64,000 nucleotides of DNA, from the NCBI GenBank assembly GCA_014379595.1, contig JACMLM010000029.1:1-64000 (forward strand), written 5' to 3'. This stretch comes from Anaerolineales bacterium (lineage in GTDB: Bacteria; Chloroflexota; Anaerolineae; Anaerolineales; Villigracilaceae). How positions within the stretch are numbered: the first letter of the stretch is position 1; every line of letters starts with the position of its first letter. Both the position numbers and the translations under genes were made by a program. Under the pieces are notes generated by a model. It had not been told where the DNA came from, made no database searches, and was given only the letters and a program-made list of their open reading frames with translations. This document shows positions 3,239-8,043 of this stretch, piece after piece.

Positions 3239-3244
3239 TATACT
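3239..3244 (+). promoter_or_regulatory. -10 box of UGA-containing thioredoxin-like gene
   Basis: TATACT ends 6 nt before ATG 3251, so the transcript should be leaderless. No convincing -35 box. Confidence 0.5.
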
Positions 3245-3250
3245 ATTAAG

Positions 3251-3718
3251 ATGAACAAATATGTCAGATTTTTGATCGTGTTCATTATTGTAGTGGTGAT
3301 GTTCGCTCTTACGTGGAAGAAAGATTCACGAGGTGTGTTGGGTGCATATGCAAGTGATTCGGTTTCTGTATTTGCGAATGTAACACCCACACCAACTGTT
3401 GTTCTAGAAAGCACCGATGTTGTAGAAAATACTACATCAATGCGCAATCTTGTTCTTGTTGAATTCTTTGCAGGGTACTGACGAGATTGCATTGCGATGC
3501 AACCCATCGTGAATGGGATCAAGAAACAATATAGGGTGTGTTTACAAGTGGAGAGAGTTAATTTTCACGCCGAAACTCTCTGGCATGAAATGATCGCACC
3601 TATTGGTTCACCGGAGTTCGCTTTACTTGATTCTTCTGAAAATATTTTGGTTCGCTGGGTTGGTTTTACAGAAAAAGAGGAATTTGTCGAAGTGTTGAGT
3701 CCGCTGTGTGGTGTTTAA
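3251..3718 (+). CDS. Membrane-anchored thioredoxin-fold protein with in-frame UGA in the UxxC position (candidate selenoprotein)
   Basis: One reading frame of 156 codons with a single TGA at 3479-3481. N-terminal membrane helix about residues 5-23, a Thr/Pro-containing linker, then LVLVEFFAGY-[UGA]-RDCIAMQPIV. This aligns with the thioredoxin segment VDFWAxWCxxCKxxxP, putting the UGA exactly at the first catalytic Cys and giving Sec77-Arg-Asp-Cys80. The fold continues after the codon, with IGSPEFALLD as cis-Pro strand and ILVRWVG as the following strand. A hairpin at 3503-3517 (CCCAT, loop CGTGA, ATGGG) begins 22 nt after UGA with its loop 26 nt after it, compatible with a bacterial SECIS. 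Likely an extracytoplasmic thiol/selenol oxidoreductase. The alternative is a one-base nonsense mutation or sequencing error of TGT/TGC. No sel genes are in the window. Confidence 0.7.
3503..3517 (+). promoter_or_regulatory. Candidate bacterial SECIS hairpin
   Basis: Five-base-pair stem CCCAT/ATGGG with a 5-nt loop CGTGA (G in second position) inside the coding region, loop 26 nt downstream of the UGA. A second hairpin, TTGCAT-TGCG-ATGCAA (3487-3502), lies nearer the UGA and could compete. Confidence 0.45.
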
Positions 3719-3721
3719 AAT

Positions 3722-3761
3722 AAAAAGAGACACTGAAGAATTTTCTTCAGTGTCTCTTTTT
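3722..3761. terminator. Bidirectional intrinsic terminator
   Basis: GAGACACTGAAG / CTTCAGTGTCTC stem with a 6-nt loop, flanked by A and T runs, between the thioredoxin-like gene and convergent fhs. Confidence 0.92.
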
Positions 3762-3768
3762 ATTTATA

Positions 3769-5763
3769 TTAGAACAAACCGAGAACTCTGCCTGTCTTAA
3801 GGTCAAGGTCAATGTCATAGAATGAAGGTCGGGTCCCAAGCCCGGGCATTGTCCGCATATCACCAAGGATCGGATATAAGAAGCCAGCTCCAACAGAGGC
3901 GCGGATTTCCCGCACACTCACACGGAAACCAGTTGGCGCACCTTTCTTGGTTGCATCCGTAGTGAATGAAAGGTGGGTCTTTGCCATGCAAATGGGAAGC
4001 TTGTCAAAACCAAGGCGTGTATATCGTGCAATTTGCTCCTCGGCTTCCTGGCTATAGTCCACACCATCTGCCCGGTAGATTTCTTTCGCTATGGTTTCTA
4101 TTTTATTTTTAATTGAAGCATCCAATGAATAGAGGAACTCGAATTTGCTAGGCTGCTCTGCGGCTTTTACAACAGCTTCGGCTAGTTTCTTTGCGCCTGC
4201 ACCACCATCTGCCCAATGCGTGGAAAGGATTGCATCCATTGCTCCAAATTCCAAGGCAGATTTGCGGATCAGTTCGATCTCAGCTGGTGTATCCGTTGCA
4301 AATGAGTTGATCGCCACGATCACATTTACACCAAACTTTTTTGCGTTCTGAATATGACGTTCAAGATTTGCGAGACCTGCTTTTAATAAGGCCAGATTCT
4401 CGTCGGTGTATTCAGAAGCGAGTGGCTTGCCTGCTACAACTTTGGGGCCGCCGCCATGCATCTTAAGTGCGCGGACTGTGGCCACCATCACCACTGCGTT
4501 TGGGATCAAGCCAGAGTAACGGCATTTGATATCGAAGAATTTTTCCATACCAATGTCTGCACCAAAGCCTGATTCAGTGACAACGTAATCTGCAAGCTTG
4601 AGCGCGATCTTATCCGCGATAATAGATGACTGTCCATGCGCAATATTTGCAAACGGACCAGCATGAACTAAAGCAGGTGTACCTTCAAGTGTTTGCATCA
4701 TATTTGGCTTGATCGCATCTTTCATCAACACGGTAATTGCACCGGCTACTCCAAGGTCTTCGGCTGTGACTGCCTCTCCGCGTTTGTCTGTGGCAACAAT
4801 CATTTTTCCAAAACGTTCGCGCATATCTTCAAGGCTAGTAGTCAATGCCAATACTGCCATGATTTCAGAAGCGACAGTAATATCGTAACCAGAGCGATGT
4901 TCGAAACCAATTTCGTCTTTACCAAGGCCAACTTGAATTTCACGTAAGAAGCGATCATTGATATCTACTACGCGACGCCAGGTAATGGTCGATTCGTCAA
5001 TATCGAGTCGTACAAAGCGGGTTCGTTCTTGAGGTGTTAGTTTATTAGGATCAGTTTTTTTTATGCCGAGTTTCTTTAATCGGCGCAGCATGGTGGGGGA
5101 GAATTTGCGATTGCCTTTTTTATCAACTGGGCAAAGCGCGTTAAATAATTTTTCATCATCCTGCTGCTTTTCGTGCATCACACGCGCATCTAATGCAGCG
5201 GCAGTTAAATTATGTGAAGCAGTGATAGCATGAATATCCCCTGTTAAATGCAGGTTGAATTCTTCCATCGGAATCACTTGTGAATATCCACCGCCTGCGG
5301 CACCGCCTTTGATACCAAAAGTCGGCCCTTGCGATGGCTGACGAATAGCTGTAATTACTTTTTTGCCCAAATGTGCACCTAATGCTTGTGAAAGACCTAC
5401 TGTAGTTGTGGTCTTACCTTCGCCAAGCGGTGTGGGGGTAATAGCAGTTACATCTATATATTTGCCATTTGGTTTGTTCTTAAGACGTTCAAGGATTTCA
5501 AGTTTTATCTTGGCTTTGTATGGCCCATACAATTCAAGTTCATCTGGGCGAATACCAAGTTCTTCGGCAACTTGCATAATGGGTTTGATATTAGAAGCCT
5601 GTGCAATATTAATATCTGATGGTACTGGCCGTAAAAGTTTTAATTTTATGGCTTTAAATTTCACTAAAGTTTTCGCAGCTCGTGGAGCTGCATTTTTCCC
5701 CTTTGTAGACAATGTTGCAACTTTCTTCACGGCTTTCTTGACAGACTTTGCTTTGGTTGCCAT
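3769..5763 (-). CDS. fhs: Formate--tetrahydrofolate ligase, long form
   Basis: Makes 10-formyl-THF from formate, THF and ATP in the cytosol. The ATP loop [12 protein letters not shown] is at residues about 110-120. At 664 aa it is about 100 residues longer than the common bacterial enzyme. An insert near residues 205-300 ([43 protein letters not shown]) resembles the synthetase domain of eukaryotic C1-THF synthase. The first 45 residues are Lys/Ala-rich and basic, with no counterpart in typical bacterial enzymes; they may bind nucleic acid or be disordered. A good ribosome site (AAGGAGAA) precedes ATG 5763. It is the only Fhs in view, and no other C1 genes adjoin it. Confidence 0.95.
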
Positions 5764-5848
5764 AGATTCTCCTTGTAGATTATATATAATCCAACATTCC
5801 TATTATCTGAATATTTCACAAAAAAAGCAAGGGCAATTGGTCATATCT

Positions 5849-6649
5849 TTATTCTTTCAGTAATGTCCCTACATTTTCACCTTTTAATGCACGAGTCAAA
5901 AATCCATTTTCTTCGGCAGAAAAAATTTGAACAGTCAGTCCTTTATTTTTTTGGATTAATGAAAGCATTTCCTCTACTTTGGCTTTCATCCCACCAGTGA
6001 CATCTGTGCTGGCCGAGCTGCCGATCCCTGCTCGCATCTTTTCATAATCTGCAAACTGGATTTCGCTCACAAGCTTTGTCCTCGCTGGGAAATCTTCCCA
6101 AACGCCCGCCTCCATTCCTGCTAGTAATATTCTTGTAGGGGAGAACTGTTCGGCGAGAAATGCAAATACATCTTCAGTGGAAAGAATCGTTCCACCAAGT
6201 GATTCATCGAAAGCCACGTCACCATGAACAACCGGTAATAAATGAGCATCTAAGGACTTGCGCATAGCCAATATATTGTGATATGTTACTTTTCTATTAT
6301 TTGAAACCATGGATGATGACGGTGGAAATGCTATTGCAGCAACGCCTGTATTCATTAGTGATTCCATTACGTAACGATTTAATTCCGCTGCCTGAAAGCG
6401 GACTTCTGCAAAGCCACGCCATTGCTCGGTTGTTTTTACACCATCGCGTGTGCCATGTTTCTTGGCAGCAGTGTGTCCGAATGAGCCAGAGCCGTGTCCT
6501 AGAATCAGGAGCAGGTTTGGGTTTGAGTCCAGAACCGTTTTTATTTCCATTGACAGTTCTGCTAATTTGTCGAGTCTTGCGGTGTAAGGTTTATCTTTAT
6601 CTGTAATTAGTGATCCGCCCAATTTGAGAAAAACGATTTCATTTGTCAT
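5849..6649 (-). CDS. ipk: Isopentenyl phosphate kinase
   Basis: Amino-acid-kinase-fold enzyme phosphorylating isopentenyl phosphate to IPP. Motifs: FLKLGGSLITDK at the start, LGHGSGSFGH near residue 55, PVVHGDVAFDESLGGTILSTEDV in the middle. The combination of the GHGSGSFGH His and the GDV..D..LGG..LSTED stretch is that of IPK rather than acetylglutamate or uridylate kinase. IPK is known in archaea, plants and some Chloroflexota, where it belongs to an alternative mevalonate route. No other isoprenoid gene is adjacent. Divergent from the next gene across a region with a pair of palindromes. Confidence 0.85.
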   Translation of the reverse strand: MTNEIVFLKLGGSLITDKDKPYTARLDKLAELSMEIKTVLDSNPNLLLILGHGSGSFGHTAAKKHGTRDGVKTTEQWRGFAEVRFQAAELNRYVMESLMNTGVAAIAFPPSSSMVSNNRKVTYHNILAMRKSLDAHLLPVVHGDVAFDESLGGTILSTEDVFAFLAEQFSPTRILLAGMEAGVWEDFPARTKLVSEIQFADYEKMRAGIGSSASTDVTGGMKAKVEEMLSLIQKNKGLTVQIFSAEENGFLTRALKGENVGTLLKE

Positions 6650-6673
6650 GGGCTATTTTTACCACTATCAACC

Positions 6674-6734
6674 AGACTTCGGAAGTCTTTTGAACGATGA
6701 GATCATAAGTTCATGGGAAAGACTTCCGAAGTCT
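6674..6734. repeat. Pair of 15-bp palindromes in a divergent intergenic region
   Basis: AGACTTCGGAAGTCT (6674-6688) and AGACTTCCGAAGTCT (6720-6734) are each palindromic around one base and together form a perfect 17-bp inverted repeat. Centre spacing is close to 45 bp, about four helical turns. Either paired operators between ipk and the next gene or a miniature inverted-repeat element. Confidence 0.6.
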
Positions 6735-6751
6735 CACTATTACGTACATGC

Positions 6752-6757
6752 TATAAT
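6752..6757 (+). promoter_or_regulatory. -10 box for the membrane protein gene
   Basis: TATAAT ends 7 nt before ATG 6765, supporting a leaderless transcript and that start. The right palindrome arm covers the -35 position. Confidence 0.55.
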
Positions 6758-6764
6758 CTTAATC

Positions 6765-7547
6765 ATGGATATTCGTGCAGGTGTGATCGTTATGGCGATT
6801 TTTGCAATCATTGGGGCGTTCTTTGCAATACGCGCCGCGATCAAAACCATGCAGACCGCTCGTAAATTATCTTTTTATAGTTTGCGCCGACAACACAATG
6901 TTGGCGCATGGAGATTATTTTTCTTTGCATTATCTCTATTTGCATGTGCATATTGGCTTCCATTTTATGGAGAACCGTTGCTCTATGCCTGGTATCCTCC
7001 ATCTCCAACACCATCGCTAACTCCCACCATTACTTTGACTCCCACGATCACACTTACACCAACGATCAGTCCGATTCCTTCGCGTACGAATACACCATCT
7101 GTTACAGAAATACCTACGCTCACGCTTACACCATACTTGCCTGTTGCGATTGAAGCATTATTTGAAGGAAATGTTACTCCAAATCCTGATGCAGTTTTTA
7201 CGGCCATCCAATTTTCAGAAGAGTTTGATGGAGTAAATGTAGTAAACCCTCAAACTGTATTTGAACAGCCGATTGAAATAATGTATGGCGGATTCGATTA
7301 CAACAATACCATTCCCGGTACCCAATGGACAGCGCTTTGGTATCGCAATGGGGAGCTAGTCTGCTATGAAACTAAGCCTTGGGATGGCGGCACAGGCGGT
7401 ATTGGCGGCTATACAGAATGTTCGTCACCGATTGGCGGCTGGCAGGCAGGATCGTATGAGGTTCAAATATTTATGGGATATGAATGGAAAATGATCGGGC
7501 GTTTTGTAGTTCAAGAAAATCTTTTGTCTCCAACAGTAACTCCATAG
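6765..7547 (+). CDS. Membrane-anchored protein with Thr/Pro linker, unknown function
   Basis: I do not recognise the family. Two hydrophobic helices (about residues 6-24, GVIVMAIFAIIGAFFAI, and 50-68, LFFFALSLFACAYWLPF) are followed by a repetitive Thr/Pro-rich stretch (TPTITLTPTISPIP and similar), then an exported globular domain of about 120 residues rich in Gly, Trp and Tyr, which ends WKMIGRFVVQ. The layout (anchor, TP linker, beta-rich domain) is common in surface proteins of Anaerolineae. ATG 6765 is preferred to upstream starts because TATAAT lies 7 nt before it. The thioesterase gene follows after 7 nt, probably co-transcribed. Confidence 0.65.
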   Translation: MDIRAGVIVMAIFAIIGAFFAIRAAIKTMQTARKLSFYSLRRQHNVGAWRLFFFALSLFACAYWLPFYGEPLLYAWYPPSPTPSLTPTITLTPTITLTPTISPIPSRTNTPSVTEIPTLTLTPYLPVAIEALFEGNVTPNPDAVFTAIQFSEEFDGVNVVNPQTVFEQPIEIMYGGFDYNNTIPGTQWTALWYRNGELVCYETKPWDGGTGGIGGYTECSSPIGGWQAGSYEVQIFMGYEWKMIGRFVVQENLLSPTVTP

Positions 7548-7554
7548 GTGCTAT

Positions 7555-8043
7555 ATGACTGAAAAATCTTTTCAAGATCATTATCCTGAATACTTCGCTC
7601 ATTGTTATGGCTGCGGAAGTTTGAACGAACATGGACATCAAATAAAAAGCTTTTGGGATGGTGAAGAATCAGTTTGTCATTTTCAGCCGAAGCCATATCA
7701 CACAGCGATTCCAGGTTATGTGTATGGAGGCTTGCTTGCCTCACTGGTGGATTGTCACGGCACAGGGACTGCTGCCGCAATAACATACAAAGTCGAAAAA
7801 GAGAAAGAACCCAATTCTGAGCCCAACACACGTTTCTTAACCGCATCCTTGCATGTGGATTATCTCAAGCCCACGCCGCTTGGCCCAATGCTTGAAATCC
7901 GCGCGAAGGTAAAAGAATTAAAAGGACGCAAGGTGATTGTGGAAGAATGGATTGTTGTAAATGGTGTAATTACGGTTAAAGGGGAAGTTGTTGCCATACA
8001 AGTGCCAGAGCAACTGGTGCAAGAATTGTTAAACAAAAAGTAG
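7555..8043 (+). CDS. PaaI-type hotdog-fold thioesterase
   Basis: Probable acyl-CoA thioesterase of the 4HBT/PaaI family. The hotdog signature is seen in YVYGGLLASLVDCHGTGTA (central helix with conserved Asp) and in strands SLHVDYLKPTPLG and LEIRAKVKELKGRKV. An N-terminal CYGCGSLNEHGHQI segment, with two Cys and His, is common in this subfamily. 162 aa is slightly longer than the usual 130-150. Substrate cannot be told from sequence. The stop codon lies within the terminator stem that follows. Confidence 0.8.
   Translation: MTEKSFQDHYPEYFAHCYGCGSLNEHGHQIKSFWDGEESVCHFQPKPYHTAIPGYVYGGLLASLVDCHGTGTAAAITYKVEKEKEPNSEPNTRFLTASLHVDYLKPTPLGPMLEIRAKVKELKGRKVIVEEWIVVNGVITVKGEVVAIQVPEQLVQELLNKK

Follow-up and report, generated by a model that had tools for sequence, protein, structure and literature searches.

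That bacteria have UxxC selenoproteins of the thioredoxin fold, thioredoxins among them, is established: the first-pass annotation of this DNA stated as much for thioredoxin-like forms, and tables in a 2006 survey (PMC1794560) and a 2026 review (PMC13188914) confirm it; the review tabulates the Sec-containing thioredoxin (Trx, PF00085, UxxC) as experimentally verified. It also gives a model, NF041057 (Rcas_1661 family thioredoxin-like (seleno)lipoprotein), for a DsbG-like protein (PMC13188914). For the Chloroflexi, the 2006 survey lists three selenoproteins in three families (PMC1794560), and the main text of the 2026 review has no occurrence of Chloroflexota or Chloroflexi (PMC13188914). We found no paper title naming the subfamily described below, a negative that goes no further than titles for most papers. 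The classical thioredoxin site is WCGPC, and DsbE proteins are membrane-anchored, extracytoplasmic members of the thioredoxin fold whose classical forms carry Cys, not Sec. We take the prefix Rcas to denote Roseiflexus castenholzii, a Chloroflexota species.

The locus studied here lies in the first 64 kb of contig C32 (the window, meaning the whole 64,000-nucleotide stretch that was analyzed) of an Anaerolineales assembly of 4.47 Mb in 72 contigs, which is 95.1% complete with 0.28% contamination. On the forward strand, which also carries the features of this gene and the terminator-like hairpin described below, positions 3251 to 3718 form a frame of 155 residues followed by TAA. Its single internal stop is a TGA at codon 77 (3479–3481), within FAGY-U-RDC, and translation places this lone stop, as first annotated, at the first catalytic Cys of a thioredoxin-like frame. 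With Cys put at codon 77, the protein matches Pfam Thioredoxin (PF00085) with an E-value of 5.5e-8 and 33.2 bits, above the cut-off of 23.5 that is also passed by the relatives L113 (30.5 bits), L021 (29.7 bits), and L022 (28.7 bits). This domain match and the conservation on both sides of UxxC bear out the fold elements that had been noted on either side of the UGA. On the basis of sequence, Pfam, and relatives, we interpret the gene as encoding an N-terminally anchored thioredoxin-fold selenoprotein with Sec77 as the first catalytic residue and Cys80 (TGC, 3488–3490) as the resolving residue of UxxC.

Residues 3 to 26 (3257–3328) form a hydrophobic N-terminal helix, also helical in a low-confidence structure model, that has the appearance of a signal anchor; no lipobox Cys, as expected of a lipoprotein, occurs in the first 76 residues. 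By eye, the N-terminus switches within the subfamily between a Cys-less transmembrane-like helix (L021, L022, and the window) and a lipobox-like signal with its Cys (L113 and L151–L153). Cys97 (3539–3541) and, near the C-terminus, Cys153 (3707–3709) are retained in the subfamily members aligned or read; they are possible structural partners, and a disulfide between them is speculative. Pro121 (3611–3613, in SPEF/TPEF), invariant in the alignment of four subfamily members, is a candidate cis-Pro facing the active site, a role that we presume from thioredoxin structure. The structure predicted from four sequences reached a pLDDT of only 56.7, and because the model is weak we took only the fold class from it: Foldseek returned 5e4w (E 4.6e-5), the thioredoxin 1v98 (E 4.9e-5), and many further thioredoxins.

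Like the Sec-containing thioredoxin, the window protein has PF00085, a UxxC site with a single Sec at the first catalytic position, and a downstream hairpin within the coding sequence. Unlike it, the window protein is N-terminally anchored and, we infer, exported, has two further conserved Cys residues, lacks a classical WCGPC-type site, and belongs to a clade of its own; against the NCBIfam thioredoxin equivalog TIGR01068, it scores 32.2 of the 96.8 bits required, far under the cut-off. NF041057 resembles it by model name, as a thioredoxin-like (seleno)lipoprotein, and gives no match to the window protein at E ≤ 1; its score against L023, a protein of the family that we call A below, is 20.1 bits for a cut-off of 190. 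The DsbE family model for thiol:disulfide interchange (TIGR00385) matches residues 7 to 94, that is, the anchor and the active-site half, weakly, at 25.7 bits for a cut-off of 123.15. The window protein passes no NCBIfam cut-off, so the subfamily is without a model of its own there.

The gene is flanked by an amidase gene on one side and, on the other, by a formate-tetrahydrofolate ligase gene that is convergent with it. Directly 3′ of its stop codon, between the two convergent genes, is a terminator-like hairpin (3720–3763; one found, against 0.4 expected from shuffles). In L112 the selenoprotein gene is likewise followed by formate-tetrahydrofolate ligase, amino-acid kinase, and the further genes of window 3769–8043, in the same order; L111 instead has a pterin-binding enzyme as its convergent neighbor, with an MTTB-type methyltransferase nearby, and both neighborhoods look like one-carbon genes. 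No clear ribosome-binding site was seen by eye before the ATG. A TATACT at 3239–3244, six bases before the ATG in a stretch partly kept in genomes G022 and G036, may be the −10 box of a leaderless mRNA. The window also holds an FGE-sulfatase domain (150–1733) and a threonine/proline-rich low-complexity stretch (6624–7547).

A genome check for the selenocysteine machinery, suggested in the first-pass annotation, found all four components over their cut-offs. SelA (550.6 bits), SelB (342.4 bits), and SelD (345.1 bits) each exceed the curated NCBIfam cut-off, tRNA-Sec scores 64.6 bits against an Rfam gathering score of 47, and ARAGORN reports a tRNA-SeC with the anticodon tca. The selD gene of the host genome is itself of the UGA form (CAGUASK). 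Among 14 well-known genomes used as controls, SelA was present at E ≤ 1e-50 in one (Escherichia coli), SelB was over the cut-off in two, and SelD in two; five genomes exceeded the gathering score of the tRNA-Sec model, so the tRNA score alone is weak evidence.

The subfamily of the window protein is present in three of the 57 genomes of the genus (E ≤ 1e-15) and in eight of 400 genomes drawn from the order, including the same three; in a sample of 400 genomes from the phylum, the sole match was that in the genome of the window itself (E ≤ 1e-12). In all eight subfamily genomes, the matched frame contains one TGA, which falls on the catalytic codon each time (window, L021, L022, and L150–L154); this count is by genome because L150 and L113 are the same gene. 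The first-pass annotation had held that TGT or TGC at 3479–3481 in close strains would speak against selenocysteine. None was seen: separately assembled relatives carry UGA at the same codon, and no Cys form of the subfamily appeared among the 57 genus, 400 order, and 400 phylum genomes. selA is over its cut-off in all eight genomes. Relatives of the gene lie in the records JACRMH010000063.1, VFKN01000132.1, and JADLBX010000065.1 (Chloroflexi, Anaerolineaceae, and Anaerolineales bacterium, respectively), three loci obtained by a contig scan with an alignment query; a single-protein query gave no relative. A tree of 128 domains, four of them subfamily members, groups these four as a single clade on a long branch (support 100/100). 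Across seven members (L154 was omitted from this and from the hairpin codon comparison below), nonsynonymous differences per site 3′ of the UGA are fewer than synonymous ones in 21 of 21 pairs.

Those 128 thioredoxin-like domains, on 127 loci, comprise L113 and every listed match of a protein query against 101 relatives, 78 of which gave matches. L110–L112, copies of L020–L022, were removed before counting; L150–L154 are also outside the set, as is a TlpA-like Cys domain read on the forward strand of L045. Related rows inflate all family counts that follow. When homologues are aligned at the site, as had been proposed, the catalytic codon is only ever UGA or Cys: 88 TGA, 25 TGC, 15 TGT, and no other. 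The second catalytic codon is TGC or TGT in 127 of the 128 domains and TGA in one. From the tree we named a family A, a family B, and a classical clade; 28 of the 40 Cys rows belong to the classical thioredoxin clade, which has no UGA, and the other 12 fall inside UGA-rich clades. The tree needs seven changes between Sec and Cys, at least five of them forced by well-supported branches. selA accompanies UGA members in 58 of 62 genomes and is present in four of the nine genomes that have only Cys members of those clades (Fisher p = 0.001, ignoring the relatedness of the genomes); the four UGA-member genomes without selA at E ≤ 1e-50 (G034, G055, G062, and G066) are drafts, 53 to 95% complete. 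The window gene belongs to one of several related UxxC families in the order Anaerolineales.

Several other genes deserve mention in their own right. The window's genome encodes a second UGA thioredoxin-like protein, of a different family (L050, G000:C48:41831-42130; FFRFTUSTCRAMAPMVHGLE); by a hand count from the tree, 43 of the 57 genus genomes contain UGA members of its clade. L133 (G094:C380, position 777, read on the reverse strand) is a lipoprotein-like relative with UGA at both catalytic positions (UTTU) and, after them, the perfect hairpin CCC GTC GTG AAC GGG; it is a possible double selenoprotein, as a single case. L026 carries tandem UxxC genes (positions 1132 and 1597), both with UGA at the catalytic codon.

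The first-pass annotation had also proposed a plausible SECIS hairpin. The core element at 3503–3517, CCCAT(C GTG A)ATGGG, has the geometry noted there: five base pairs and a 5-nt loop, CGTGA, lying 26 nt after the UGA with G at loop position 2. At the sixth position of the hairpin, the window has C-A and many relatives have C-G or G-C; a G opens the inner loop. Bacterial SECIS elements (bSECIS) are described as having an apical loop of 3 to 9 nt, an upper stem of 4 to 16 bp, a G in the first two loop positions, a distance of 16 to 37 nt from the UGA, and a minimum free energy of ≤ −7.5 kcal/mol (PMC13188914). The window hairpin falls within these geometric ranges, and its offset is unchanged in relatives. 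The hairpin alone gives −4.3 kcal/mol and a 54-nt fold that keeps it −9.7 kcal/mol; without that constraint, a competing fold at −14.5 kcal/mol is optimal. Compared with shuffles, the 54-nt fold is unusual (z −2.82) and the 70-nt fold is within the ordinary range (z −1.16), both being the competing structure; when only 33 nt are folded, the centroid is the hairpin but the optimum is not (z −0.41). Given the weak hairpin energy and the competing predicted fold, the energetic argument does not carry the SECIS reading, and because single-sequence folding does not favor the hairpin in the window, we relied on comparison instead. Some 5-bp Watson-Crick hairpin in the bSECIS range follows 184 of the 2708 TGA trinucleotides on both strands of the window, so the hairpin by itself is weak evidence; four TGAs, including this one, share the same offset and a G in the first two loop positions (14 when G-T pairs are counted). 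An Rfam scan of 3300–3800 gave 24 matches up to E 10, none over the gathering score and none on the SECIS; all 24 lie at 3666 or beyond, at the terminator.

Across the wider family, the rows align without gaps from the UGA through the hairpin, and the hairpin goes with the UGA; one identical 60-mer was dropped from one of the sequence comparisons. All five outer pairs are present in 72 of 88 UGA rows versus none of 40 Cys rows, at least four in 86 versus two, and a G at the start of the inner loop in 88 versus 26. Among the 16 UGA rows that miss at least one outer pair, 12 have a CCC/GAG mismatch (two of these miss two outer pairs) and four miss another pair. UGA rows have a mean of 5.60 of six pairs, versus 3.92 (sd 0.08) under synonymous-codon resampling. 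The classical clade Cys rows have 2.43 pairs against a null of 2.30 (sd 0.14), and the 12 Cys rows in UGA-rich clades have 3.08 against their own null of 2.30 (sd 0.23), an excess that one might guess to be a remnant of lost hairpins. What lies beyond chance is the occurrence of UGA or Cys in 128 of 128 domains together with a hairpin that is present in UGA rows and absent in Cys rows.

The covariance test that had been suggested for the hairpin was passed across the wider family. On 49 UGA rows less than 90% alike, the covariation score is 0.386 versus 0.176 (sd 0.017) for shuffled rows; none of 500 shuffles was as high, and structures slid along the alignment reached at most 0.142. Two other measures are unremarkable: double-change pairs (67 of 500 shuffles) and additional pair types (106 of 500). 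Of the nine rows with Ser (TCC) at codon +8, seven have the synonymous GGA on the other arm and two have a G-U pair, and Arg at codon +12 occurs with a matching Pro codon in 12 of 12 rows (AGG or AGA with CCT in 11, CGG with CCG in one). These double-change rows are not all independent; the Arg cases occur in both large families. In the seven subfamily members, all four amino-acid-invariant codons within the hairpin are also codon-identical, and the 23 other invariant positions, outside the hairpin, have a mean pairwise codon identity of 0.53, with two fully identical. The hairpin of the original SECIS proposal is present and conserved, but taken alone it does not exceed chance, and its energy is weak.

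We consider it very probable that the UGA at 3479–3481 is read as selenocysteine, a conclusion drawn from the machinery genes and from the conservation of both the codon and the hairpin; the relatives keep the same stop with a matching hairpin, or Cys, at this site. Translation with Sec, inferred in the first-pass annotation, is in this way strongly supported. A stop codon interrupting the frame is also what one would expect of a pseudogene, its active site broken by a chance UGA or a sequencing error, but the recurrence of the UGA in eight of eight subfamily genomes, the purifying selection 3′ of it, and a column of 88 UGA and 40 Cys codons with no TAA, TAG, or other codon leave this account next to no probability. 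Decoding of UGA as Cys or Trp by an opal suppressor or a reassigned code is very improbable: homologues do have Cys at the site, and read-through as Cys would preserve function, but genes for the Sec machinery, including tRNA-Sec(UCA), are present, the hairpin is tied to UGA rows, and UGA also terminates genes of the same subfamily. It is a normal stop in the genes of L111 (on the same contig as L021) and L113, each of which has an internal and a terminal UGA, and, of the window's 33 open stretches of 300 codons or more, eight end in TGA. The mechanical ORFs 3251–3481 and 3497–3718 could instead represent two proteins, a short anchored peptide ending at the UGA and a 73-residue C-terminal piece starting at ATG 3497, and this ATG (Met83) is invariant in the four aligned subfamily members and present in 61 of 88 UGA rows. 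The second piece would lack both catalytic positions, yet both sides of UxxC are conserved, and 27 of the 88 UGA rows have no ATG there; we regard this division as exceedingly improbable.

With the UGA read as selenocysteine, the ribosome, SelB-GTP, and Sec-tRNA(UCA) would decode 3479–3481, and the SECIS hairpin at 3503–3517, inside the coding sequence, would direct the insertion. The N-terminus and the lipoprotein-like relatives make it probable that this thioredoxin-fold protein is signal-anchored and lies outside the cytoplasmic membrane. There, the Sec77-Cys80 pair would undergo exchange with disulfides in exported substrates, most likely as a reductant, and would itself be re-reduced by a membrane electron carrier, for example a DsbD_TM-type protein; we favor this reducing role of the predicted oxidoreductase with modest confidence. 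Sec could also be inserted into a thiol oxidase or isomerase partnered by VKOR. The genome has two VKOR-family matches over the cut-off, which would suit such a protein, but it also has three DsbD_TM-family matches over the cut-off, and Sec in UxxC sites usually serves reductive chemistry, so that an oxidase or isomerase appears unlikely, if still a serious contender.

A further possibility, which we put at somewhat less than even odds, is that the exported UxxC selenothioredoxins of the Anaerolineales (in one case UxxU) are a set specific to this lineage in which the SECIS hairpin has co-evolved with the protein, and that the set would act as an extracytoplasmic selenium-based redox relay. 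Amino-acid changes in the helix that follows the active site, from Pro to Ser and from Gly to Arg, would be offset by synonymous codons on the opposite arm (GGA facing TCC, CCT facing AGG, and CCG facing CGG), with RNA and protein each constraining the other.

We conclude that the window gene belongs to a known kind of selenoprotein, of which it forms a new and well-supported branch, and does not represent a new mechanism. Because ordinary ORF calling stops at the UGA, as happened here, proteins of this sort are easily missed. The family amounts to a natural experiment, with UGA and Cys homologues, genomes with and without selA, and a full hairpin that tracks the UGA, and the set yields a usable SECIS consensus for the Chloroflexota. 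The set further points to selenium-based chemistry on the outer side of the membrane.
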